Assembly: GCF_007971225.1 (NCBI RefSeq)
Contig: NZ_CP042435.1
Coordinates: 4,343,501 to 4,407,500, forward strand
Reading direction: 5' to 3'
Length of the DNA: 64,000 nucleotides
From: Panacibacter ginsenosidivorans
GTDB lineage: Bacteria > Bacteroidota > Bacteroidia > Chitinophagales > Chitinophagaceae
The position numbers and the translations under genes were made by a program. Of this stretch, positions 1,098 to 60,615 are shown piece after piece. Under the pieces are notes generated by a model. The model worked only from the letters and a program-made list of their open reading frames with translations. It searched no databases and had not been told where the DNA came from. The first letter of the stretch is position 1, and each line of letters starts with the position of its first letter.

Positions 1098-2480
1098 TTA
1101 TGCTTTTTCGGAATGGGCAACAGAATATAATTTCAGATCAATGATATTGTCAGGCAAAGATTTAGCATTCCATTGATGATGTATAGCGAGCGCTGCGCCA
1201 AGTGCTGAAGCCTGCGCCACCGTTGCAGCATACACTTCAATACCGGGGAAAGCTTCTGCAAGTAAATGCATATATATAGCATTCCTGCTGAACCCGCCAT
1301 CTACAAAAATTCTTTTTACACTTTCATTCAATACAAGTTTTGTCGAACGTACCTGCTGTACAATTATATCTGCGATCAACTGATGGTATGCTGCTTCATA
1401 ATTTTCAAAAGCACTGATATCTCTTGTTGCAAACATTGATTGCTTCATCATGCCATTGTCACCTGCTGTAGCTTTTCCCGCAGTATGCAACTTATTCAAA
1501 ATCTTTTCATCCAAAGCAACACTGGTAAAATAGTTGCCGGCTTTGTTAAAATGCGCTGCTAATCTTTTTGTTTGCTGCTCATGTTCATTACCGGCAAATA
1601 GGCGGGAAGCTTTTACCGGTGTTCCTTTATAGGAAAGGTAACATAAGCAATCCTGGTGCAGTTCAAGATCAGTAAGTAAACTATGATTGAAAGGATTAAG
1701 GCTGATGCACCATGTACCTGTTGACAATAAGATGAATGGCTCTGTAAAAGCTGAAAGATATGGTATCAGTGCAGCAGAGCTATCATGTAAGCCAATTCCA
1801 ATGGCTATTTTACGCGTATCATTATTGGCATGCACAATATTATCTCCACGATAAATAGGTGCAAATTTTGTACGCATTCCTTCATCATATACCCATTTGT
1901 GGTATTTATGAATTTTAAAATTCCACAACTGTGTGTGGCAACCAACACTGGTTATATCTGTAGCTGCTCTGGCTGAAACAATAAAACTTAGATACTGAGG
2001 CAGGTGGAGGGAATATTTTATCTGCTCATAAATTTTCGGTTGCTCATATTTCAAACGATACAACTGCATTCCTGAATTCAAATTCCCCAACACAGGCGAT
2101 GCTGTTTGTTTTGCAATTAAACTTTCACCACCATAAGTGTCATAAAATTTTTTCTTTAAATTTTCAGGATAAGGTTTCAGGTAATTGTATAATGGCGTTA
2201 GCGGTTTATAAAAATCATTCAGGTGCACAAAACTTGCACCATAACCAGAAAAATTTACCGCTTTTACATCATACTGTTTGTTCGCAATAAGCTGCCAGTA
2301 TTTTTCCCAAATCCAGTTGGTCAGGGCTTTTAAATCTTCGCAGGGAAAGCCATCTTCGTCTGTTGTTTCGTCGAGCTGCACACTTTCTTCCTGCACAACA
2401 TGATATTGTTCATCAAACAATAATATTTTTTTATTGGTTTTGCCAATGTCGAAGATCGCTATGACAGAGATTTTATTCAT
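1098..2480 (-). CDS. rhaB: FGGY-family carbohydrate kinase, probable L-rhamnulokinase
   Basis: 460 residues, close to the usual length for FGGY kinases. The N-terminal AIFDIGKTNKKILLFD is the phosphate-1 motif of the ASKHA fold. LLSTGTWCISLNP (mid-protein) and FVDGGFSRNAIYMHLLAEAF (C-terminal third) match the phosphate-2 and adenosine motifs seen in rhamnulose and fuculose kinases. It would phosphorylate L-rhamnulose to L-rhamnulose-1-phosphate in the cytoplasm. The isomerase lies immediately upstream and the aldolase in the same run of genes, which supports rhamnulose over fuculose or xylulose as substrate. The family alone does not settle the sugar. About 80 bp separate it from the isomerase stop, and a repeat fills that gap. 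Confidence 0.85.
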   Translation of the reverse strand: MNKISVIAIFDIGKTNKKILLFDEQYHVVQEESVQLDETTDEDGFPCEDLKALTNWIWEKYWQLIANKQYDVKAVNFSGYGASFVHLNDFYKPLTPLYNYLKPYPENLKKKFYDTYGGESLIAKQTASPVLGNLNSGMQLYRLKYEQPKIYEQIKYSLHLPQYLSFIVSARAATDITSVGCHTQLWNFKIHKYHKWVYDEGMRTKFAPIYRGDNIVHANNDTRKIAIGIGLHDSSAALIPYLSAFTEPFILLSTGTWCISLNPFNHSLLTDLELHQDCLCYLSYKGTPVKASRLFAGNEHEQQTKRLAAHFNKAGNYFTSVALDEKILNKLHTAGKATAGDNGMMKQSMFATRDISAFENYEAAYHQLIADIIVQQVRSTKLVLNESVKRIFVDGGFSRNAIYMHLLAEAFPGIEVYAATVAQASALGAALAIHHQWNAKSLPDNIIDLKLYSVAHSEKA

Positions 2481-2561: not shown

Positions 2562-3836
2562 CTACAAACCAGTTGCAACAGTTTTCGATCCACGTTGTTT
2601 AATTAGACTTTCTCTTACTTTTTCACTTCTGTATACAGACAGTGGATTTAACACACCGCCACTTCTTAATCTTGCTTCTGCAACAAGTGCACGAACATCT
2701 GTACGAAATGCCTGCTGCAAAATTTCCTGTGCAGTTACTACATCATTATTATTCTGGGCCTCTGCTAACCTTTTCCTGTCAACCAACAATGCCTGGGCAT
2801 AGGTGATCATGATTGCCTCTACGGATTGTAATAAATCTTCAAGCGGATCTTTTACATTGTGACTCGCATCAATCATCCAGCCAAGGTCTGTTGCATGGTT
2901 CATATCTTTTGCATCCATGCCTTCAACCAGTTCATTGAAGATGAGAAATAGTTGATATGGTTTTATACTGCCAACAGTAAGATCATCATCTCCATATTTA
3001 CTGTCATTGAAATGAAAGCCACCAAGCTTTCCTTCCATCAACAACAATGCAACGATCTGTTCAATATTTGCGTTTGGCAAATGATGCCCAAGGTCAACTA
3101 ATGTGTATGCTTTCTTGCCAAGCTTACTTGTATATAATAATGATTGTCCCCAATCTCCAACAGTTGTGGAATAAAAGTTAGGTTCAAATGCTTTGTACTC
3201 TACAAACATTTTCCAGTGATCGGGCAGAGCTGCATATACTTCCTGCAAACTTTCCAATGTATTCTGAAATGCTTTTCTAAAATTCAACTGGCCGGGAAAG
3301 CATGAACCATCACTTAACCAAACGGTTAATGATTCAGAACCCAACTCTAAGCCATATTTAACTACTTCAATATTGTGATCAACTGCTTGTTTGCGCACCG
3401 CTTTATCTACATGCTGCATGGATCCATACTTATAACTCAATTCCTGATCAGGCTGATCCTGGAAAGTGTTGGAGTTCATGGCATCGAACTTTAAACCGTT
3501 TTGTGCAGCGAGTGCTTTAATGTGTGATGCATTTTCCGGAATATCCCACGGAATGTGTAAAGAGATAGCTCCACTACTTCTGTTCAATGCATGTAGCAAA
3601 CCAATGTCTTCAATTTTTTCTTCAAGGTTACGCGGTTCGCCACCACCGGGAAAACGGCCAAACCTTGTACCGCCTGTACCCAGCGCCCAGCTTGGGATTG
3701 CCACCTGGAAGTCTATCAACTTTTGCAGCAAACCATTTACATCTTTTATATCTGCGGCAATAAAATCAAACTTGCGCTGGTGCTCTTTCTGCAGCGAATG
3801 GTTGTGTTCTTCGAGTTTATATTTTTCTATTTGCAT
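2562..3836 (-). CDS. rhaI: L-rhamnose isomerase, Pseudomonas stutzeri/Bacillus-type sugar isomerase
   Basis: 424 residues with a xylose-isomerase-like TIM barrel. Candidate metal ligands can be picked out: Glu in VEYKAFEP, Asp in LVDLGHH, His in GGFHFND and Asp in the following SKYGDDDL. This is the layout of the metal-dependent L-rhamnose isomerases of the P. stutzeri type, which differ from E. coli RhaA. It interconverts L-rhamnose and L-rhamnulose. Its neighbours are mutarotase upstream and kinase downstream, so the assignment is strong. A related role on another 6-deoxy sugar cannot be excluded by sequence alone. Confidence 0.9.
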   Translation of the reverse strand: MQIEKYKLEEHNHSLQKEHQRKFDFIAADIKDVNGLLQKLIDFQVAIPSWALGTGGTRFGRFPGGGEPRNLEEKIEDIGLLHALNRSSGAISLHIPWDIPENASHIKALAAQNGLKFDAMNSNTFQDQPDQELSYKYGSMQHVDKAVRKQAVDHNIEVVKYGLELGSESLTVWLSDGSCFPGQLNFRKAFQNTLESLQEVYAALPDHWKMFVEYKAFEPNFYSTTVGDWGQSLLYTSKLGKKAYTLVDLGHHLPNANIEQIVALLLMEGKLGGFHFNDSKYGDDDLTVGSIKPYQLFLIFNELVEGMDAKDMNHATDLGWMIDASHNVKDPLEDLLQSVEAIMITYAQALLVDRKRLAEAQNNNDVVTAQEILQQAFRTDVRALVAEARLRSGGVLNPLSVYRSEKVRESLIKQRGSKTVATGL

Positions 3837-4538: not shown

Positions 4539-6719
4539 CTATCTCAAAAACGCCATAGCCACACCACCATCAACATTCAATGTGTTACCGGTTGATTTAT
4601 TTAATAGACCACCAACAAAAGCATAACATGCGTTGGCAATATCTTCAGGCAGAATAACTTCATTGAGCAAAGTGCGCTTTGCATAGTATGCGGGCAACTC
4701 TTCAACCGTGATGCCGTATGCTTTTGCACGGCCTTCTGCCCAGCCGCCAGCCCATATATTACTGTTTGCAATAACCGCATCAGGGTTTACAGTGTTTACA
4801 CGTATCTTATCTGCACCAAGTTCTGCAGCCAGCAAACGTGTAAGATGCGCCTGCGCAGCTTTTGCGCTTCCATAACCTGCATTGTTTGGCCCGGCAACTA
4901 CAGAATTTTTTGAGACAATATTGATGATGTCTCCGCCAATATTTTGTTTGCGCATGATCTCCACGCCAAGCTTTGATACCAGAAACTGACCTTTCACCAA
5001 AATATCATACAGCTTATCCCAATCTTCAATTGAATGATCAGTGATAGATTTTGAAATGCTGATGCCCGCATTGTTTACCACAATGTCGACACCACCAAAA
5101 GCAAGTACTGCATTTGCATAAGCTTTTTCGATAGAAGCATTATCTGTTACATCGAGTAATGTTGATGCGGCAGTATCTCTGCCAAATTGTTTTTGAAATT
5201 CCTGCATGGCTTCATTCATACGCCCTTCATTAATATCATTAATGATAATACATGCACCTTCTTCTGCGAATCTTTTAGCAATTGCTTTTCCTATTCCTCC
5301 TGCGCTTCCTGTTATGAGTGCAATTCTGCCGCTCAATGATTTTGGCTTGGGCATGCGTTGCAGCTTGGCTTCTTCCAATAACCAGTATTCAATGTTGAAT
5401 GCTTCCTGCCTTGGCAATGATGTGTATTCACTAACTGCTTCGGCGCCACGCATAACATTAATAGCATTGATATAAAATTCTGAAGCTACCCTTGTTGTTT
5501 GTTTATCTTTTGCAAAGCTGAACATACCTACACCGGGATATAAAATGATCACGGGATTTGCATCACGTATAGCAGGACTGTTTGGATGTTTGCAACTGTT
5601 GTAATATTCCGTATACATCTTTCTGTATGCTTCAAACAACGGAGCGATCTTTTCTTTGATTGCTGCAGTATTCGTTACGTCTTCATCTGTTGAAAGATTT
5701 AATACAAGCGGAGAAATTTTTGTACGCAGAAAATGGTCGGGGCAGCTTGTACCAAGAGGCGCTAATCTTTCAAGGTCATTTGAATTGATGAATTGTAATA
5801 CACGGTCATCATCGGTAAAATGACCGATCATGCCCCCAACCCCTGAAGGGGAGTTTTTAGGGTAACCTGATGAACACAATCCCCTTAAAATTGGAGCGAG
5901 TGTTGCTGCTTTTTTCAACCGTTCTTCTTTGGGTAATGGTTCTATTTTTTGTCCGCCGAAAATGGCGCCTTTCTTTCCATAATTATCTTCAAGGTATTGT
6001 GCGCAACGCTCAATTACTTCAAGGGTGTTGATATAGCTTTCATAAGCTGTATCGCCCCAGGTAAATAATCCATGTGAGCCAAGCATAATGCCACGGATAC
6101 CAGGATTTTCATCAAGACATTGTTTCAACATGAGGCCGAGTTCAAAACCGGGTTTCTGCCATTTTACCCAACCGATTGTTCCGTTGAATAATTCCTTTGT
6201 TATTTTCTCTCCATCTTTTGCAGCCGCGATTGCAATAGCTGCATCAGGATGTAAATGGTCGATATGTTTGAATGGAAGAAATCCATGCAACGGTGTATCT
6301 ATTGAAGGAGCTTTTGATGCAAGATCATAAATGCAATGATTGAACAACTCTACCATTTCATCTTCATATTCTAACCCCCGATAGATATTTTTCAGACTGC
6401 GTAAACGGTCAACATATAAAGCTGCAAGTCCGTTGCGTTTCATGGTACCAAGATCGCCGCCACTGCCTTTTACCCACATCACTTCTGTTTCTTTTCCCGT
6501 CAAAGGATCTTTGGCCATTGCTTTACAGGATGTGTTGCCGCCACCGTAGTTTGTCAAGCGCAGGTCAGCTCCAAGCAAGTTAGAACGATATACCAATAAG
6601 GCTACTTCATCGCCTGCAAGTTCTGCTGCTTTGGCTTCGTCCCACAAATATGAAACGTGTTTGAAACCCCCAACCCCTAAAGGGGAGCTGTAAATCTCAT
6701 CATTTTTAATTGTGCCCAT
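4539..6719 (-). CDS. rhaD: Bifunctional rhamnulose-1-phosphate aldolase/lactaldehyde dehydrogenase
   Basis: 726 residues. The N-terminal half is a class II aldolase/adducin domain with NYGGGNTSCK near residue 60 and a metal-site GSHGLFTWGD about residue 215. The C-terminal 260 residues are a short-chain dehydrogenase with TGSAGGIGKAIA for NAD binding and a catalytic YGSAK. Such fusions (RhaEW type) cleave L-rhamnulose-1-phosphate to DHAP and L-lactaldehyde and oxidise the aldehyde to L-lactate. Two short segments look foreign: SPLGVGG at about residues 12-18 and NSPSGVGG at about residues 290-297. Each is encoded by a copy of a CCCC-palindrome repeat, inserted in frame, and the surrounding protein is undisturbed. 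Metal and cofactor motifs remain intact, so the protein is probably active. Confidence 0.92.
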   Translation of the reverse strand: MGTIKNDEIYSSPLGVGGFKHVSYLWDEAKAAELAGDEVALLVYRSNLLGADLRLTNYGGGNTSCKAMAKDPLTGKETEVMWVKGSGGDLGTMKRNGLAALYVDRLRSLKNIYRGLEYEDEMVELFNHCIYDLASKAPSIDTPLHGFLPFKHIDHLHPDAAIAIAAAKDGEKITKELFNGTIGWVKWQKPGFELGLMLKQCLDENPGIRGIMLGSHGLFTWGDTAYESYINTLEVIERCAQYLEDNYGKKGAIFGGQKIEPLPKEERLKKAATLAPILRGLCSSGYPKNSPSGVGGMIGHFTDDDRVLQFINSNDLERLAPLGTSCPDHFLRTKISPLVLNLSTDEDVTNTAAIKEKIAPLFEAYRKMYTEYYNSCKHPNSPAIRDANPVIILYPGVGMFSFAKDKQTTRVASEFYINAINVMRGAEAVSEYTSLPRQEAFNIEYWLLEEAKLQRMPKPKSLSGRIALITGSAGGIGKAIAKRFAEEGACIIINDINEGRMNEAMQEFQKQFGRDTAASTLLDVTDNASIEKAYANAVLAFGGVDIVVNNAGISISKSITDHSIEDWDKLYDILVKGQFLVSKLGVEIMRKQNIGGDIINIVSKNSVVAGPNNAGYGSAKAAQAHLTRLLAAELGADKIRVNTVNPDAVIANSNIWAGGWAEGRAKAYGITVEELPAYYAKRTLLNEVILPEDIANACYAFVGGLLNKSTGNTLNVDGGVAMAFLR
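5833..5862. repeat. Short G/C-rich palindrome inserted in the aldolase gene, copy 2
   Basis: CCCCCAACCCCTGAAGGGG followed by AGTTTTTAGGG. On the coding strand it adds residues PKNSPSGVGG to the aldolase just before MIGHFTDDDR. Confidence 0.75.
6665..6689. repeat. Short G/C-rich palindrome inserted in the aldolase gene, copy 3
   Basis: AACCCCCAACCCCTAAAGG then GGAGCT. It encodes SPLGVGG near the N-terminus, immediately before the family-typical FKHVSYLWDEAKAAELAGDE. Confidence 0.75.
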
Positions 6720-7042: not shown

Positions 7043-7100
7043 TCTTACAAGAGTGCGACGCAACGGAAGCTTAATGCTTATTCTTTAGCCCGGCTCATAA
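7043..7100 (-). repeat. GCGTC palindromic repeat, right half, subtype A
   Basis: TTACAAGAGTGCGACGCAAC then GGAAGCTTAATGC, ending in an AGCCCGGCTCATAAAAA tail. The tail resembles those of the copies at 30856-30985 and 58624-58778. Confidence 0.8.
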
Positions 7101-7157: not shown

Positions 7158-8246
7158 TTATTTTATCGAATTCCCATAACCCACCAACAATACAGAAACT
7201 ATAATGGTTATTATTCCTAATACAATTGTTGTGATCGTTTTTTTGTTTACGCCTTTCCATTCTTTTAATACCAGCCCCCACATATTTGCCGTGAGGATGA
7301 TGAATGCCATGTGCAGTATCCATGAACTGGGGCCATTGCCCAGCTTGCTTTCGCCCATGCCATAGAAAAAAAATTGTAAGAACCATGTAGTGCCTGCCAA
7401 TGCAGAAAAAATATAATTCTTTAACAGCGGTGTTTGTTTATTTGTATAATCATTAAATGTTTTGTTGCGTGCATTTAATATCATGCACCAGATAAAATTT
7501 GTTGTTAAACCACCCCATAAAACCACCACATAAGTTACATTATTCTGGTATAAAAAATTGCCTTGATTTGGATTAGCTGCTTTCCATAATTCATTGGCAA
7601 GATCGGCCATTGGTTTACCGGCTTCGAGACCAAAATTGAAACATGCACTTAACACACCCGATACAATAGAAACAAACATGCCGAGTGCAAATTTATATTC
7701 GGTCTTTGTTTCCATTCCATGCGGGTCAGTAGCCTCTTTTACTAATTGCTTCTCTTTCATCATCCCGGCTTTACCACAGATGATGATACCAACAATACAA
7801 ACTGCAAGTCCCGCAAGAACTGTGAGACCCCACTGCGAACCAGTCAACATGCTAAAAGTATCTTTACCTTCTTTAGGAAAAAGATCATAATAAATGGAAG
7901 GAATAATTGCACCGAACACCATGCATAATCCAAGAATAATACTGCTGCCAAGTGAAACGCCAAGGTAGCGAACGCCCAGGCCATAGGTTAATCCACCAAT
8001 GCCCCAAAGCACACCAAACATATAGGCAAGACCAATGGTACTGCCACTGGCACCTTTGATGATATCTGCAAAACCTGGAATGGTAAGATAAGCGGCAAGC
8101 GGCGGAACAATCAACCAGGAAAAGATGCCTCCAACGATCCAGAAGCTTTCCCAATGCCAGCCCTTTACTTTCTTATAAGGCATATAAAAACTGCCTGAAG
8201 CAAAACCTCCGATGAAATGAAAAATAACTCCGAGTATAGCCTGCAT
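7158..8246 (-). CDS. rhaT: L-rhamnose/proton symporter
   Basis: 362 residues and about ten hydrophobic segments, as expected for RhaT of the drug/metabolite transporter superfamily. The start MQAILGVIFHFIGGFASGSF and the segments GLAYMFGVLWGIGGLTYGLG and GSQWGLTVLAGLAVCIVGI fit the family. It sits in the inner membrane and imports L-rhamnose with a proton. It is the first gene of the catabolic run. Its upstream region carries the shared CTGTCATG direct-repeat operator (8311-8332) and a TACTTTTA -7 box (8286-8293), so transcription probably begins near 8280, about 30 bp before the ATG. Confidence 0.92.
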   Translation of the reverse strand: MQAILGVIFHFIGGFASGSFYMPYKKVKGWHWESFWIVGGIFSWLIVPPLAAYLTIPGFADIIKGASGSTIGLAYMFGVLWGIGGLTYGLGVRYLGVSLGSSIILGLCMVFGAIIPSIYYDLFPKEGKDTFSMLTGSQWGLTVLAGLAVCIVGIIICGKAGMMKEKQLVKEATDPHGMETKTEYKFALGMFVSIVSGVLSACFNFGLEAGKPMADLANELWKAANPNQGNFLYQNNVTYVVVLWGGLTTNFIWCMILNARNKTFNDYTNKQTPLLKNYIFSALAGTTWFLQFFFYGMGESKLGNGPSSWILHMAFIILTANMWGLVLKEWKGVNKKTITTIVLGIITIIVSVLLVGYGNSIK

Positions 8247-8285: not shown

Positions 8286-8332
8286 TAAAAGTATATTGAC
8301 TGATAAAGATAACTGTCATGGTCTGTCATGAA
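8286..8332 (-). promoter_or_regulatory. Rhamnose-regulon promoter and operator upstream of rhaT
   Basis: The operator consists of CTGTCATG at 8313-8320 and again at 8323-8330 (plus-strand sequence, minus-strand promoter), repeated with a 10-bp period. TACTTTTA, reading on the minus strand at 8293-8286, matches the Bacteroidota -7 element with A for G. 17 bp separate the two parts. No good -33 TTTG is seen, which fits a promoter that needs an activator. The same arrangement occurs at 10676-10721 and 18775-18839. Confidence 0.7.
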
Positions 8333-8373: not shown

Positions 8374-8530
8374 AACATCCGTTGCGTCGCACTCTTGTAC
8401 GGTTTAAATACAAGTCAGCAAAGTGGGAAAAGCAGGTAAGCCAGAAGAATATCACTTCGTATAAAAATCTCCCGGACTTCCGGCCTGCCGGCTTTCGGAC
8501 TGAAAGCACAAGCGTGCGACGCAAGTAAAG
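8374..8530. repeat. GCGTC palindromic repeat, both halves, subtype A
   Basis: Left core GTTGCGTCGCACTCTTGTAC at 8381-8400 and right core CAAGCGTGCGACGCAAG at 8509-8525, in opposite orientation. Between them is a G/C-rich inverted segment around CCGGCCTGCCGG. It fills most of the 330-bp gap between rhaT and the DoxX-like gene; the rest holds the rhaT promoter. Confidence 0.8.
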
Positions 8531-9024: not shown

Positions 9025-10656
9025 TTACTGCTGAAATATCTCCGGGTATTTTCTTATAAAATAAACAGGCGTGCAGCTCCATGCATGACAATAACTGTTT
9101 ACAGGAAAAAATTTATACGGTGATAAAAAATCATCTTTGGGATCGTACACTTCCCAAAAAGTATCTGCGCCTTTGTTTACCATACCACCCCAATAATTTG
9201 TGAGCAGTTCTTTTGCTTCCTGCTTCAGATCGCATTGGATCATTGCTTCAATAACATAATGATACAAATAAGGTGCACCGGGATATACGACGTTTTGCAT
9301 TGTTGGTAATTTCTTTAATGCAGTAGCGCCTTCTACTTTTGTGGCAACACCGCTAAGCACCATCCATGCCTGCGATGCATAAGAAACCTGGTTGTCTTTT
9401 CCACTTACAAAAACACCGGAAGTTTTATCGTATAAATTTTTGTGTGTTGCATCGGTCATCTTTTTTACTAAAGCAGGAAGCTCCGCTACTTCATTTTCTT
9501 TACCGATCATCTTTGCAAGTTCGTACGTGTTTTTATATGCCCAGATAACAACACCCTGCAACGCTGCCTGTTTATCCAAACCGTTGCGCCAATCGAAGAA
9601 GAGCCACCATTCTTTGTTTGCTTTTTCATAATCGAGCATGCCATCTTCGCCGAGATATTTTTTGGGGATTTCTAATTGTTGTTTTATAAGCGGCCAGAGA
9701 TCAAGTGCTGTTTGCTTATCGCCTGTTGCCTGCACATATTCTTTCACAGCCACATCATAGATCAAAGCATAATCGAATAAAGGATTGATCTGCGGATGTG
9801 GTTTTGGTCTTTCAAAAACATTAGAAGGTGCTACGCCATCTTCATAACTAAGACCTGCAAGCAAATACAAACAATGTTTGGTAAGCGCATAATTTTTGTA
9901 AGAATAAATATTGGCAAGTGATTCAAGATAAAGATCACCGATCCATAATCTTCTGTCACGTTTCGGACCATCTTCATACACTGTTTGCATGCATTCTTTT
10001 AAAGTGGTCAATCCAATTCTGTCTATATCCCCGATCATTTTATTTGTTGTTGCGGCAAGTGCGCCGGGAGTTGTATTCACCGAAGTAGATGCTTTAAATG
10101 AAACATTGGTGATCCGAAAATCTGAATAAACAGAACTCCCCAGCAATTCCATTTTTACATAACAAAAAGCAAAGCGCCGCGGAATAGTAATCGTTGATGG
10201 CACATCTGAAATGGTTATGATCTCATCCTGCAGCCATGCCCGGCTTAAACCACCGGGATAAGGATCGAATGGCGTTGCGAGTTCAGAAGGCACTTCGCCA
10301 AAAGTAAATTTTATACGCAACGGTGCATCTGCTGCCCGGTTCAATTCTTCTACACTAAAAGTAAAATAGCCGGTTAGATGTTCACCAAAATCTACCACTA
10401 CACCAGATTGTTTTTTGAAAGAATTATTATATAACGAATCAACGGGTTTTGATTTGACTGCTTTCCAATGCTGGAATACATTGTCATCCTGCACAAGCGT
10501 AACAAGTGTTACGGGCTGTTTAATTGTTTCAATTAATGGAGGTTTGCTTTCTTCTGCTTTTTGCAACCATCCGCCACGCTGCTCTTTGTAGATATCCTGT
10601 GCATTTGCTGCTGTAACGAGGCAAAGGACAAAAAAAATAAGGCTGCTTTTTTTCAT
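9025..10656 (-). CDS. GH78-family alpha-L-rhamnosidase-like glycoside hydrolase
   Basis: 543 residues with a signal peptide (MKKSSLIFFVLCLVTAANAQ), so exported to the periplasm or beyond. A beta-sandwich region precedes an (alpha/alpha)6 catalytic domain. The segment CMQTVYEDGPKRDRRLWIGD at about residues 222-241 corresponds to the GH78 signature usually written D-x-x-x-x-R-E-R-x-x-W-x-G-D; here RDRRLW has Asp in place of the usual Glu. The protein is shorter than many GH78 enzymes, which carry extra N-terminal modules. It would release L-rhamnose from glycosides and so feed the adjacent catabolic genes. Its promoter carries the same operator as rhaT, which supports a rhamnose role. The exact linkage is unknown. 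Confidence 0.83.
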   Translation of the reverse strand: MKKSSLIFFVLCLVTAANAQDIYKEQRGGWLQKAEESKPPLIETIKQPVTLVTLVQDDNVFQHWKAVKSKPVDSLYNNSFKKQSGVVVDFGEHLTGYFTFSVEELNRAADAPLRIKFTFGEVPSELATPFDPYPGGLSRAWLQDEIITISDVPSTITIPRRFAFCYVKMELLGSSVYSDFRITNVSFKASTSVNTTPGALAATTNKMIGDIDRIGLTTLKECMQTVYEDGPKRDRRLWIGDLYLESLANIYSYKNYALTKHCLYLLAGLSYEDGVAPSNVFERPKPHPQINPLFDYALIYDVAVKEYVQATGDKQTALDLWPLIKQQLEIPKKYLGEDGMLDYEKANKEWWLFFDWRNGLDKQAALQGVVIWAYKNTYELAKMIGKENEVAELPALVKKMTDATHKNLYDKTSGVFVSGKDNQVSYASQAWMVLSGVATKVEGATALKKLPTMQNVVYPGAPYLYHYVIEAMIQCDLKQEAKELLTNYWGGMVNKGADTFWEVYDPKDDFLSPYKFFPVNSYCHAWSCTPVYFIRKYPEIFQQ

Positions 10657-10675: not shown

Positions 10676-10721
10676 TAAAAGTACAGTGTATAATGTAATA
10701 ACTATCATGTACCATCATGAA
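10676..10721 (-). promoter_or_regulatory. Rhamnose-regulon promoter and operator upstream of the GH78 gene
   Basis: Half-sites CTATCATG (10702-10709) and CCATCATG (10712-10719), 10 bp apart, flanked by AA on both sides. TACTTTTA on the minus strand (10683-10676) follows 16 bp later and is identical to the rhaT -7 box. The GH78 start codon is 20 bp beyond. Confidence 0.68.
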
Positions 10722-15827: not shown

Positions 15828-18686
15828 CTAAAACCTGAATGTTGCTGTAACAAAATACGACCTGGCAGGAATAGATACGGTTGAATAAGGCGTATTGTTT
15901 TTAACTGCATCGTTATACATTTCTTTGGTGAAGCCCTGCCTGTCAAGCGCTGCAAGGAAAGTACCGGGGCGGCTCCAACTCATTACACCATATGTGTTGA
16001 AAACATTATTGATAACAAGACCGAGTTTGAAATTTTTTGTTACATCATACCCTGTACTGAAATTGAACTGGCTGAATGATGGCAGCTGGAATGCATTGGC
16101 CACATTTGCCTGGCGCTTGCCCATGAATGCCCAGGTAAGCTGTGCATAGAATTTATTAAGATTGTAAGAGGGAGTAATATTGAAGATGCTTCTTGCAATG
16201 TTATCCACTTCATTGCCGGAGAAAGAAACAAGTGAATCATCTTCTGGTCCGAAACCATTTGAAAGCCAGGTATGATAATCTACTGCTTTTGACTTCTGCA
16301 ATGTAAGCACACCACGTACATTAAAATGTTTTGCGAAAGCATAATCTGCTTCTACTTCTACACCGTAGGTTCTGTATTTGTTATACACGAGTGGCGTACC
16401 ATAAAAGGTTTGATCCTCATTCTGAAAATTCTGCACACCTGATACATTGCTTAACACACTGTAAAATGGCGTTACAAATAAATTGAGATTGCCTGTTCGT
16501 GCTTTTATTCCTAATTCAAACTGGCGCACTTTCTGCGCAAGCGGGTTCAATGTTTTAGCGAGGAAATCTGAAGTGGCATTAAAGTACATATCAAGATCCG
16601 GCGCTTTATTACCTTCTGAATACCTGCCATATAAGGAGAACTGGTTGCTGATCGTATAATTTAAACCTGCTGAGTAAGAAAAAGTGTTTACTGTTTTATT
16701 AAAGTTATAGGTAGCTGGCGTTGTACCATATGCATTATCATACAAGGTAAGTGGGTTACCATCTAAACCACCTGCTGTATCCTGGTTTGAAACAGATGGT
16801 GTATTATAACCTTTCACCTGCATGCTTTCGTACCGCACACCCCAATCCACATTTAATGCAGGTGCTATTTGCCAGTTGTGACCAAAGAATAATGCAAGCT
16901 GACTTTGTGCTGCGTGTGCAAGGGAAAAGCCGCCACCTGCAACACCTGTGACACCGTTTGAGTTAGTAACCATTGCAATACTTCCGTCCTGGTTGGTGCG
17001 TGTAATGTTTACCAGTTCTGGTTTGTCTTGTATAGTGCCCAACGCTACACCGCCAAAAGAATTAAGCCTGTCAATTTTCGAATGACCATAAAAGCCACCA
17101 AATGTAAAGCTCATATTTTTCATTTTTTTGGTGAGTGAGAACTGGTCTAACAGTTCTTTTACTTTATTATCAACATAGAAAACGGGTTCGAAGAATAATG
17201 AGTTTGCAGAAACATCACTTCCGGGTAATTCACTGTGATTGACATTAAAATCAAAACCACTGAATGAAGTAATATTTGCCAGTTCTTTTCCTGTACTCAT
17301 TGATTTAATACTGTAAGTACCGGGCGTACCAAGCAAACCAAGAATAGCATAGGTAACAAGGTCATCCATGGCTACAGGATACACCACTGCATTGGTATTC
17401 CACACAGCAGCTTTATCTGAATAGCGCATGGCGTTGTTAAAAGTAAATCCATTACCAAGGCGTTGCTCCCAGTTAAAGCCAAATGATTTATCAATGGAAT
17501 GAATAAGATCACGATTGTTATATGTTGCTATTTGCCCTGTTTGATTGATAGGAAGATTTTGCTGAACAGAAGGCATCAGCACAGAAGATGTAATGGAAAA
17601 ACCTGGTGCGGGTTTAGGGTTGAAAAATCCAACTGTGGGTGTAAATTCAGGCCAGCCATTGTGATCATTCAAATATTTGGCATATAATTTTATAGAACCA
17701 CTATTATATTTTTTTACAATATTGCTACGGAATTGTCCGCCTCTGTTCATCGCATAACCAGGGTTTCTGTTGCCTTCATCATAACGATAAAAACCGCCTG
17801 CATCCCAGAACCAGTTATGCCCGAGAGGTCCGCCAATATTGAAGTCTGTGCGATAGAAATTATTTTTGCCATCACCTTCCAGCCCATATTTGGTTGCAAC
17901 TTCACCGGCAGTTTTATTGCCGCCTTCTTTCATAATATAGTTAAAGATGCCACCGGGTGCGTTTGCGCCAAGAATAGATGCAGTACCACCTTTCACCGCT
18001 TCCAGTCTTCCCAGTGTTGCATCAGGTCTTAGGAAATAATCAGGGCCGTAATTGCCATAGGTTGCATTGGTTACAGGCAATCCATCTTCCTGCATGCTTA
18101 CATAATAATAACCTGAAGCACCATCATTTGAACCAACAGATACACCACGTGAATAAACAGTATTTCTTATTTCACCCAATGCAGAGTTTACATATACACC
18201 GGAAACATTTTTCAAAAGATCTGCTGCACTTGCAGAAACCAGTTTGCTTATTTGCGTTGAGTTAATAGTTGTAATGGCAACAGATGCTTCCATCTTCTTA
18301 CGTTTATCAAATACACCCGTTACAATGATCTCTTCATTATCATTGGATTTTTCTTCGAGTGAAATATTTAAGACACTGCTTTTGCCAGCTGATATTTTTA
18401 TCTCCTTATCATTATAACCAACATAAGATATTATAACTGTTACATTGGTTGATGTTAGACCGGTAAAAGAAAATTTTCCCTGGTCATCAGTCTTGGTACC
18501 ATTGTTTGTTCCTTTGATCAATACAGACGCACCTGCCAGCGGCTCTCCTTTTTGATTGGTAACCTTACCTGAAATAGCAACAGTTTGAGCAGATAACTGT
18601 GAAGAAAATAGCAACAGCATTACAAAGCAGGTAATAAAAACATAAGGCTTTGTACCGTTAAGCAATCTTTTGTTCATAACAAGCAT
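15828..18686 (-). CDS. TonB-dependent receptor with N-terminal carboxypeptidase-regulatory domain
   Basis: 952 residues. A signal peptide (hydrophobic residues about 15-33, cut near LSAQ) precedes a carboxypeptidase-D regulatory-like domain (ISGKVTNQKGEPLAGASVLI, residues about 38-118). A plug domain (about 120-250) and a 22-strand barrel ending in VTATFRF, the terminal Phe needed for outer-membrane insertion, follow. A TonB-type segment EEIIVTGVFDKRKKMEASVA starts at about residue 118. It lacks the SusC signature and no SusD gene is adjacent, so it resembles siderophore/oligosaccharide-type receptors. Its promoter carries the same direct-repeat operator as rhaT and the GH78 gene, so I infer uptake of a rhamnose-containing ligand. 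ATG at 18677 is an equally possible start. Confidence 0.88.
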   Translation of the reverse strand: MLVMNKRLLNGTKPYVFITCFVMLLLFSSQLSAQTVAISGKVTNQKGEPLAGASVLIKGTNNGTKTDDQGKFSFTGLTSTNVTVIISYVGYNDKEIKISAGKSSVLNISLEEKSNDNEEIIVTGVFDKRKKMEASVAITTINSTQISKLVSASAADLLKNVSGVYVNSALGEIRNTVYSRGVSVGSNDGASGYYYVSMQEDGLPVTNATYGNYGPDYFLRPDATLGRLEAVKGGTASILGANAPGGIFNYIMKEGGNKTAGEVATKYGLEGDGKNNFYRTDFNIGGPLGHNWFWDAGGFYRYDEGNRNPGYAMNRGGQFRSNIVKKYNSGSIKLYAKYLNDHNGWPEFTPTVGFFNPKPAPGFSITSSVLMPSVQQNLPINQTGQIATYNNRDLIHSIDKSFGFNWEQRLGNGFTFNNAMRYSDKAAVWNTNAVVYPVAMDDLVTYAILGLLGTPGTYSIKSMSTGKELANITSFSGFDFNVNHSELPGSDVSANSLFFEPVFYVDNKVKELLDQFSLTKKMKNMSFTFGGFYGHSKIDRLNSFGGVALGTIQDKPELVNITRTNQDGSIAMVTNSNGVTGVAGGGFSLAHAAQSQLALFFGHNWQIAPALNVDWGVRYESMQVKGYNTPSVSNQDTAGGLDGNPLTLYDNAYGTTPATYNFNKTVNTFSYSAGLNYTISNQFSLYGRYSEGNKAPDLDMYFNATSDFLAKTLNPLAQKVRQFELGIKARTGNLNLFVTPFYSVLSNVSGVQNFQNEDQTFYGTPLVYNKYRTYGVEVEADYAFAKHFNVRGVLTLQKSKAVDYHTWLSNGFGPEDDSLVSFSGNEVDNIARSIFNITPSYNLNKFYAQLTWAFMGKRQANVANAFQLPSFSQFNFSTGYDVTKNFKLGLVINNVFNTYGVMSWSRPGTFLAALDRQGFTKEMYNDAVKNNTPYSTVSIPARSYFVTATFRF

Positions 18687-18774: not shown

Positions 18775-18839
18775 CAAAAGTATTTTTTACATTTCCCGCA
18801 ACCGTCATGCGCTTACATGAACTGTCCTGTACTGTCCTG
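18775..18839 (-). promoter_or_regulatory. Rhamnose-regulon promoter with four in-phase half-sites
   Basis: TACTTTTG on the minus strand (18782-18775) is a perfect TAnnTTTG -7 box. 17 bp upstream begin half-sites CCGTCATG (18802), CTTACATG (18812), CTGTCCTG (18822) and CTGTCCTG (18832), each exactly 10 bp after the last. The first two match the operators of rhaT and the GH78 gene in sequence and spacing. Confidence 0.7.
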
Positions 18840-18938: not shown

Positions 18939-19060
18939 GATGTCGGCTATTGTTATGATGGCATCTTCGTTGCGTCGCACTCTTCAGCAGTTAGCTCAGT
19001 ATTGAAGAGAACGTACAAGTGAGTGACACAACGAAAGCTGCTGCCTGCACAAGGCCCGAA
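18939..19060. repeat. GCGTC palindromic repeat, both halves, A left and B right
   Basis: Left half GATGTCGGC ... GATGGCATC then GTTGCGTCGCACTCTTC; right half GTACAAGTGAGTGACACAAC then GAAAGC. It lies in the 487-bp gap between the divergent TonB receptor and beta-helix genes; the rest of that gap holds the receptor promoter. Confidence 0.8.
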
Positions 19061-19173: not shown

Positions 19174-20733
19174 ATGAAAAAGATCTTTATCATTTTTTCG
19201 CTGGTAATAAGCATGCAGGGCTTTGCAAAAGTTATACAGGTGCCACAACAGTACACAACGATACAGGCAGCCCTGAACGCAGGTACAGTGGGCGATACAG
19301 TGCTGGTAGACGCAGGAACTTATTTTGAAAACATTGTGTGGCCGCAAACAAATAATCTTCATTTATTAAGCAAAAATTTAAAGACAGCAGCCACTGTTAT
19401 TGATGGTAAAAGAGCTGGCCGTGTATTTGATATTGAATGGAATGGCAACACTGCATTTGCAGCAGAGATCAACGGATTTACTGTACAAAATGGTTTTATT
19501 GATGTGCCTGCACACAAAGGCGGCAGGGGTGCAGGAATTTATGCATTTCGTGCAGCGGTGCAGGTAAAGAATTGTGCACTGGTAAAAAATCTTATTACCA
19601 GTTCTGCGGAGATACAGAACAATGGTGGTGGTGCAGCTATCTATATTATTTCATCACCTGCTGCATTAACGAATATTATTGATCATTGTCTTATTGCCGG
19701 GAATGTGTTAAGAGATGTTACAACCGGTGAAGGTGCTGCAATAGGGGTGGAGAGTTGTAATGCTATTATTGGTAATACTACTATTACTAATAACAAGTTT
19801 ACCGTTTCTGAAGTGGCAGTAGGTACGGTGTATGCTTATTCAGCTTCACTAAAACTGGATGCAGTTAAAATTGAAAACAATACTATCAATACAACTGAAC
19901 AGATTTTATATGGTGCAGCTTCCATAAAAGGCGGCGCTGTGTATGCATATCTTACAAAACTTCAGATGACCAATTGCCTTGTAGATGAAAATATATTAAC
20001 CCCTTTCAGCACCAATGAAGCGCTACTTGGCAACGCTGTTTATTTTTACGGTCAGGCAAAAGATTTTAAAATTTTCAGCAGCACACTTGCTAACAACAAA
20101 AGAACGGATGGAGCACCTGTGCTAGGTACAGGTATTTATTTCAGCAGTTTGCCTGGTATCGCGCCAAACGTTTATAATTCCATTTTATGGAACCCTGATA
20201 ACGGTGCAGAAATTTATAATCAAACAAAACTTACACAGGTTGCCTATAGCGATATTCGGGGTGGATATAATGGTACTGCAGTGTTGAATAGCGATCCAAA
20301 ATTTGTTTCCAATAGAGATTATCATTTGCAAGACAGTTCACCCTGCATCAATTCAGGCAATACTGCACTTGCCCCATCTGTAGATCTTGATGGTAATACG
20401 AGGCCGCAGGGACCTGCTGCAGATCTTGGTTGTTACGAATCAAGTGCAGTATTAGGTGTTTCACTTGCAGATGCGGCAGTCATACAAAATATACACGCAA
20501 CGAATCTGTATCCAAATCCTACAAACGGTTCATTTACTTTAGCTGTTACCGATAATTGGCTCAACGCTTCTATCAAGGTACATGATGCATCGGGAAAAAT
20601 ACTTTTTGCAGATAAAATAATGAACCATACAACAAATTTCAATTTCAGTAAATGGGCAGCAGGCTTGTATCTTATTGAATTAGCAAACAGTGCTCATCAA
20701 ATAAAAAAATTAGAATTGGTAATTCAGAAATAA
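19174..20733 (+). CDS. Secreted right-handed beta-helix protein with T9SS sorting domain
   Basis: 519 residues with a signal peptide (MKKIFIIFSLVISMQGFAK). The body begins VPQQYTTIQAALNAGTVGDT, the usual entry of pectate-lyase-like parallel beta-helix proteins, and continues with helix turns such as NNGGGAAIYI and EGAAIGVESCNAIIGNT. Around residue 400 SVDLDGNTRPQGPAADLGCY is a choice-of-anchor Q motif. The last 75 residues (LYPNPTNGSF ... KKLELVIQK) are a type A T9SS C-terminal domain for secretion and surface attachment. A polysaccharide-binding or lyase role is plausible, but no catalytic residues can be named. Confidence 0.82.
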   Translation: MKKIFIIFSLVISMQGFAKVIQVPQQYTTIQAALNAGTVGDTVLVDAGTYFENIVWPQTNNLHLLSKNLKTAATVIDGKRAGRVFDIEWNGNTAFAAEINGFTVQNGFIDVPAHKGGRGAGIYAFRAAVQVKNCALVKNLITSSAEIQNNGGGAAIYIISSPAALTNIIDHCLIAGNVLRDVTTGEGAAIGVESCNAIIGNTTITNNKFTVSEVAVGTVYAYSASLKLDAVKIENNTINTTEQILYGAASIKGGAVYAYLTKLQMTNCLVDENILTPFSTNEALLGNAVYFYGQAKDFKIFSSTLANNKRTDGAPVLGTGIYFSSLPGIAPNVYNSILWNPDNGAEIYNQTKLTQVAYSDIRGGYNGTAVLNSDPKFVSNRDYHLQDSSPCINSGNTALAPSVDLDGNTRPQGPAADLGCYESSAVLGVSLADAAVIQNIHATNLYPNPTNGSFTLAVTDNWLNASIKVHDASGKILFADKIMNHTTNFNFSKWAAGLYLIELANSAHQIKKLELVIQK

Positions 20734-39579: not shown

Positions 39580-39640
39580 GAGTACAAACTGCTAAAGAGT
39601 GCGACGCAACGAAAGCCCAATCATAATTCTTCACTCTGCT
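39580..39640 (-). repeat. GCGTC palindromic repeat, right half, subtype A
   Basis: GTACAAACTGCTAAAGAG then TGCGACGCAACGAAAGCCC and AATCATAATTC. It begins 22 bp upstream of the polX start. Confidence 0.78.
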
Positions 39641-60561: not shown

Positions 60562-60615
60562 CGGCACAAGAGTGCGACGCAACGAAAGATGCCATAAGAA
60601 ACATGGCTGGCATTC
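60562..60615 (-). repeat. GCGTC palindromic repeat, right half, subtype A
   Basis: GCACAAGAGTGCGACGCAAC then GAAAGATGCCAT and GGCTGGCAT. A worn left half may start near 60510. It lies in the 326-bp gap between the SGBP and GH5 genes; the gap holds nothing else. Confidence 0.78.

Follow-up and report, generated by a model that had tools for sequence, protein, structure and literature searches.

A probable double direct-repeat operator before a TonB-dependent receptor gene of Panacibacter ginsenosidivorans and its candidate GntR/LacI-type regulator

Why should the promoter of one TonB-dependent receptor gene carry four copies of a half-site, when two other promoters in the same stretch of DNA carry two? 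The question arises from 64,000 nucleotides of the P. ginsenosidivorans genome (NZ_CP042435.1, positions 4,343,501 to 4,407,500, hereafter the window). For this DNA it had been predicted that half-sites beginning at 18802, 18812, 18822 and 18832 lie in exact 10-bp phase, and that the additional ones could give cooperative binding and a sensitivity of the receptor gene different from that of the catabolic genes.

The four half-sites and their regulon

The region 18802-18839 reads CCGTCATGcgCTTACATGaaCTGTCCTGtaCTGTCCTG, as originally described, and in the window it alone matches the pattern CYRTCMTG repeated four times at 10-bp spacing, with two mismatches, both of them in the second half-site, CTTACATG. 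The same four-unit search returned no match in any of 100 dinucleotide-shuffled windows; the four half-sites are therefore present as predicted, in 10-bp steps, and a chance origin is ruled out by the shuffle and window searches. The two other window promoters have indeed two half-sites each, in one pair per promoter (Table 1). The recurring unit of this putative operator is the pair, an 18-bp direct repeat made of two 8-bp half-sites with a 10-bp step. Since the receptor gene lies on the minus strand, the extra sites (18822 and 18832) are promoter-distal and the 18802/18812 pair is promoter-proximal. Scored with a matrix built from 40 RhaT operators, the distal pair, an exact consensus whose 18 bases are identical in one orthologue (L258), reached 25.6 bits, comparable to the other operators of the same genome (24.7-27.3 bits), while the proximal pair is weak, with 16.4 bits versus a minimum of 19.5 among the 40 training operators. 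The extra sites are thus the strong ones. That they serve the divergent gene at 19174 is unlikely, as both their orientation and the -7 box point to the receptor.

Table 1. Operators, promoter boxes and genes of the rhamnose region in the window.
Feature	Position	Strand	Sequence	Remarks
Receptor, promoter-distal ("extra") operator pair	18822-18839	+	CTGTCCTGtaCTGTCCTG	Gene-sense CAGGACAGtaCAGGACAG; inferred centre about -60.5
Receptor, promoter-proximal operator pair	18802-18819	+	CCGTCATGcgCTTACATG	Gene-sense CATGTAAGcgCATGACGG; inferred centre about -40.5
Receptor promoter, -7 box	18775-18782	-	TACTTTTG	19 bp from the proximal pair
TonB-dependent receptor, regulated gene	15828-18686	-		952 aa; carboxypeptidase-regulatory-like domain, plug, barrel
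rhaT operator pair	8313-8330	+	CTGTCATGgtCTGTCATG	-7 box TACTTTTA at 8286-8293 (minus strand)
GH78 operator pair	10702-10719	+	CTATCATGtaCCATCATG	-7 box TACTTTTA at 10676-10683 (minus strand)
GH78-type alpha-L-rhamnosidase	9025-10656	-		Pfam PF21104 and PF17389; no NCBIfam match
RhaT, L-rhamnose/proton symporter	7158-8246	-		NCBIfam equivalog NF010024 above cut-off
Bifunctional rhamnulose-1-phosphate aldolase/short-chain dehydrogenase	4539-6719	-		TIGR02632 and NF006191 above cut-off
L-rhamnose isomerase-like protein (RhaI type)	2562-3836	-		TIGR02629 E 8.5e-149, below curated cut-off
FGGY kinase, probable rhamnulokinase	1098-2480	-		Pfam FGGY; rhamnulokinase model E 1.2e-14, below cut-off

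The 5.53-Mb genome contains five exact pairs, which stand in front of rhaT, the receptor gene, two GH78 genes and one GH106 gene. Three of them are at the window promoters and two, at 5.19-5.20 Mb, precede the GH106 and the second GH78 rhamnosidase. Allowing one mismatch adds two places, and the reversed control gives three. Judged by gene family, four of the five exact sites stand before genes for rhamnose transport or rhamnosidases, and the fifth, that of the receptor, is tied to rhamnose by the GH106 neighbours of the receptor's orthologues. The extra pair is hence no accident and shares its regulon with the catabolic genes, in agreement with the original prediction. Rhamnose would induce these genes through a hybrid regulator of GntR/LacI type.

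Two further features of the region were recorded. A lactate-dehydrogenase-like FMN enzyme is encoded on the same strand beyond the kinase end of the rhamnose genes (L003:17858-19006). The sequence CGTTGCGTCGCACTCTT is a dispersed repeat. The genome has 290 exact copies of it, 149 in forward and 141 in reverse orientation (none for the reversed-pattern control), and at up to two mismatches the window has 11, including 8380-8396, 18968-18984, 7049-7065, 39595-39611 and 60568-60584; one copy lies 129 bp past the receptor operator and another 50 bp past the rhaT operator.

Operator architecture and the candidate regulator

Read in gene-sense, the five sites of this genome are direct repeats of CATGACAG- or CAGGACAG-like form, and a TA box lies 18-19 bp past the end of each, TAnnTTT in four cases and TATTTTAG in the fifth. 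Among sampled pairs, TAnnTTT stands at 18-19 bp in 84 of 154, versus 15 of 3080 random windows, and 41 of the 45 RhaT operators have it at 18 or 19 bp. Excerpts of the literature place the -7 consensus of Flavobacterium psychrophilum, TAnnTTTG, at -12 to -5 (PMC9723704) and give TTTG near -33 together with TAnnTTTG as the promoter consensus of B. fragilis (PMC7366714). If the -7 box is taken to lie at -12 to -5, the pair comes to stand at about -49 to -32; operator letters occupy the -33 place, the absence of TTTG there following from the search pattern. The fixed 18-19 bp spacing would be activator-like, a class II position, though a repressor could also sit there.

The CATG core is self-complementary, and a palindromic reading was thus considered. 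It is ruled out by 30 loci retrieved solely with the regulator protein, of which 23 contain an exact pair (23 pairs): all exact half-sites at most 40 bp apart in these loci are direct repeats with a 10-bp step, none being inverted or at any other step. The pairs hence lack the palindrome of a GntR operator, and their binding by the regulator is probable. The correlation of 0.99 for the direct repeat, versus 0.07, is partly circular, the sites having been picked with a direct-repeat pattern.

The scan of window genes next to the rhamnose genes, in which the far side (L003) was represented by one ORF, revealed no regulator. The pairs' regulator is likely a protein, unlinked to the window, that joins a GntR winged helix to a LacI/periplasmic-binding-protein sugar domain. 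The window's genome encodes one protein of this family (C1:5180793-5181821), 63% identical to that of a second genome (G038), and its gene lies about 10 kb from the GH106 operator. In G038, the gene of a 71% receptor orthologue is followed by GH106 and is divergent to a gene for a GntR plus Peripla_BP_3 protein, and four half-sites stand in the gap between the receptor and regulator genes. Over 394 genomes of the family, the exact pair was found in 144 of the 185 that are regulator-positive, being absent from the other 41, and in 20 of the 209 that are negative, where presence means E <= 1e-50, a threshold also admitting paralogues; the exact pairs total 361 and 23, respectively (reversed-pattern control 13 versus 10). 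Because the regulator travels with rhaT, such co-occurrence is by itself no proof of binding. A divergent regulator gene lies within 700 bp of 22 of the 45 RhaT operators. In the window's genome the region before the regulator gene yielded no pair, and autoregulation was rejected there on this ground.

The domain assignment draws on several comparisons. In the protein of the window's genome the N-terminal GntR winged helix is recognised above cut-off (PF00392, E 4.4e-8) and Pfam Peripla_BP_3 falls below its cut-off. The C-terminal LacI/periplasmic-binding-protein fold is seen in an AlphaFold model of the G038 orthologue (pLDDT 87.0, 7-sequence alignment), which matches the lac repressor (Foldseek E 2e-13) and, among many tied matches, the AraR sugar domain 3tb6 (Z 19.4, rmsd 3.3, 246 aligned). 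The AraR DNA-binding domain was matched by sequence (4egy, E 4.1e-4), and the top NCBIfam model for the DNA-binding domain of the regulator was PdxR, of MocR type, far below cut-off. In the window's genome an NrtR-type gene (NUDIX plus winged helix) is located just upstream of the GntR hybrid gene, on the same strand (L057:18020-18784).

Site number before other receptors

Comparing the number of sites before orthologous receptors had been proposed as a check on the original prediction. We read up to 700 bp upstream of 45 homologous receptor loci (a set that may omit the window's own genome), and a recognisable pair was found in five only, four of which have at least four half-sites, with variable spacing between pairs. 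In the two closest, half-sites begin at 0, 10, 23 and 33 (L258, 75% identity) and at 0, 10, 22 and 32 (L275, 71%, the G038 record). Two Mucilaginibacter loci have five in-phase units, one of them poor, with a sixth seen by eye (L264, 58%), and four in-phase units (L272, 59%), while the last has a single pair (L293, 43%). The spacing between pair starts is thus 20 bp in the window, 22 bp in L275 and 23 bp in L258, so that strict phasing is not kept: the presence of more than one pair recurs before L258, L275, L264 and L272, and the exact phase between pairs, on which the prediction had laid stress, is lost in the two closest orthologues.

When a position matrix was aligned to the -7 box, scores of 43.8 for the window (four units), 47.0 for L264 (five) and 25.7 for L272 (four) were obtained, each at 19 bp, and the scores of L264 and L272 were not reached in 200 plain shuffles per locus. 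No TAnnTTT box was found at the expected place in L275, nor in L258 by the matrix test, TATTTTGC being seen there by eye. The Chitinophaga orthologues L259, L260 and L262 are without a normal operator, L262 having a degenerate pair, and no operator was found before two receptor paralogues (52% and 43%) in the window's genome. The Chitinophaga orthologue in G006 adjoins AraC- and NrtR-type genes, and its regulation appears to have been rewired. A Mucilaginibacter orthologue (L265:4785-4850) has, by eye, 10-bp tandem units of GAGGCAGGTT form, with TACATTCG at about the same distance, as though the regulator and its site had changed in step. In G038 the receptor gene is divided between two frames (L042:2509-5339, ORFs of 361 and 583 aa), by a frameshift or an assembly error.

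Are four sites, then, a rule for receptors? Mostly they are not. The sample consisted of 154 pairs. They were taken from the window, L057/L058, 30 search loci and 112 fetched regions, of which 12 had been chosen because of arrays or regulators. It counts overlapping pairs of one array apart, leaving 147 operators after merging, covers part of the 384 exact pairs over 394 genomes, some listed places (e.g., G012, G169, G257 and two in G204) being omitted, and is limited to arrays that have an exact CY..CY pair, so that L121, L122, L123 and, in L124, the array on the receptor side do not enter it. Gene class was the best blastp match to 21 reference proteins, with 65 of the 154 unclassified. Among the merged operators, runs of two half-sites make up 42/45 for RhaT, 13/15 for SusC, 10/11 for GH78 and 9/9 for GH106, the SusC cases with four (window, L117) and a four-unit RhaT case (L118) having been sampled because of their arrays. 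The 133 merged operators not chosen for arrays (L128-L257) have two half-sites in 126 cases, three in seven and four in none; all 13 SusC-class operators among them have two, and the idea that receptors generally have more sites was consequently rejected for this sample.

Four-unit arrays (up to three mismatches) occur at ten places in 8 of the 394 genomes, with two matches of the reversed control, both in G176. SusC-type receptors have four of these arrays before them (window, L117, L123, L124), and the remaining ones lie before RhaT (L118), GH78 (L120) and unclassified ORFs (L116, L119) or between two candidate genes (L121, L122). Compared with 13 of 133 unselected operators, SusC at 4 of 10 is in mild excess (p 0.019, framed post hoc and with the window counted). 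Post hoc Fisher tests with the window counted gave, for the receptors, 5/5 versus 2/45 (p 1e-5) and 5/7 versus 2/45 (p 1.6e-4); for other SusC proteins the post hoc test gave 2/14 versus 2/45 (p 0.24). No general surplus of half-sites was found around 138 pairs, window included, with 17 extras on the same strand and 17 on the opposite one. One array, on G176 C6 (L116:6262-6339), is made up of eight half-sites that keep exact 10-bp phase, the outermost being weak, and precedes a 590-aa ORF without a Pfam match at E 1e-6.

How the double operator might act, and comparison with known systems

The sites, their regulon, spacing, orientation and partial conservation are visible in the sequence; the identity of the binding protein, activation, cooperativity and an effect on the dose response are inferences. 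We are inclined, with some reserve, to regard the 38 bp as a double operator of the GntR/LacI-type regulator, with class II-like activation through the weak proximal pair and help from the strong distal one. On the proximal pair (about -49 to -32) the regulator would take the place of the -33 box and activate transcription. At the receptor this pair is degraded, and the perfect pair 20 bp upstream, near -60, would stand in a class I-like position on roughly the same helix face, where its occupancy could help the regulator to fill the weak proximal pair, or itself contact RNA polymerase. The response of the receptor gene would then differ from that of rhaT and the rhamnosidases with their one pair, and would probably be steeper. 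Cooperativity and a receptor-specific sensitivity are plausible, and the two-pair arrangement may tune how readily the receptor turns on.

The same regulator and sites might instead serve repression, the protein blocking RNA polymerase until sugar binds and the second pair tightening the block. Bacillus subtilis AraR, which combines the same two domains, is called a repressor in the PDB, and the operator lies over the -33 position; a repressor, however, needs no fixed 18-19 bp to the -7 box, as an activator would, and we consider repression rather unlikely. Quite unlikely, in our opinion, is a GntR-family activator that polymerises head-to-tail on the 10-bp direct repeats, with array length setting the response curve of each gene: two units for the sugar permease, and between four and eight for certain receptors and some other genes.

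Site turnover is likewise improbable: a spare upstream pair would have arisen while the proximal one decays, the four-site state being transitional and without special function. The degraded proximal pair, at 16.4 bits, and the inter-pair spacings that differ among orthologues fit such a course, but L258 and L275, which represent two other lineages, have two pairs whose half-sites all score well, and two Mucilaginibacter loci have at least four units. More improbable still appears a combination of two inputs, with a second regulator on the distal, CAGG-type pair and the rhamnose regulator on the proximal, CATG-type one. The two types do separate by gene class, CATG accounting for 36/45 RhaT operators and CAGG for 14/15 SusC and 9/11 GH78 ones, and the receptor promoter of the window has one pair of each; a single protein of the regulator family was nevertheless found in this genome, and the regulator orthologue adjoins CAGG/GAGG-type arrays in L264, L272 and L275.

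Activation through the double operator, if correct, makes the receptor question testable, as one protein in one genome would serve five natural promoters, whose one or two pairs lie at a nearly constant distance from the -7 box. More broadly, the analysis puts forward a candidate for the missing regulator, together with a definition of its site, for a rhamnose regulon spread through the family, the regulator or a near relative being present in 185 of 394 genomes. In the literature searched, with RegPrecise and most subscription journals outside its scope, we found no description of this GntR/LacI-type regulator or its operator.

Among known systems, AraR of Bacillus subtilis resembles the candidate in architecture, pairing a GntR winged helix with a LacI-type sugar domain. 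The AraR sites are palindromic and AraR represses, whereas the site described here is a direct repeat at an activator-like place. Escherichia coli CRP offers a parallel for the promoter layout, with tandem class II and class I activator sites near -41.5 and -61.5, similar to the inferred centres of about -40.5 and -60.5 on the same helix face; CRP is, however, a different protein, and here the sites are direct repeats, the promoter is of the Bacteroidota -7 kind and activation is presumptive.

Direct-repeat sites are on record for regulators with GntR domains, namely those of MocR type (GabR, TauR, PdxR), FarR, NagQ and NanR, and extra, weaker half-sites beside GntR palindromes have been reported (PMC4494728, in excerpt). 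MocR proteins carry an aminotransferase-like domain, in place of which the candidate regulator has a sugar-binding domain. Within the phylum, excerpts of PMC3878776 describe FucR and ManR of Bacteroides thetaiotaomicron as GntR-family regulators that, as proposed here, control sugar pathways; they serve fucose and mannose rather than rhamnose, the RhaR of that species is of the AraC family, and the comparison made here is at the level of the family. For rhamnose, the available portion of PMC3870299 names regulators of the AraC, DeoR and LacI families, the DeoR motifs being direct repeats of 10-11 bp, and "GntR" does not occur in the main text as available. The DeoR-family RhaR therein shares with the present case a rhamnose regulon and direct repeats of 10-11 bp periodicity, but belongs to another family; a direct-repeat, activator-placed GntR/LacI hybrid would, if true, add a type of regulator beyond those in the accessible part of that work.
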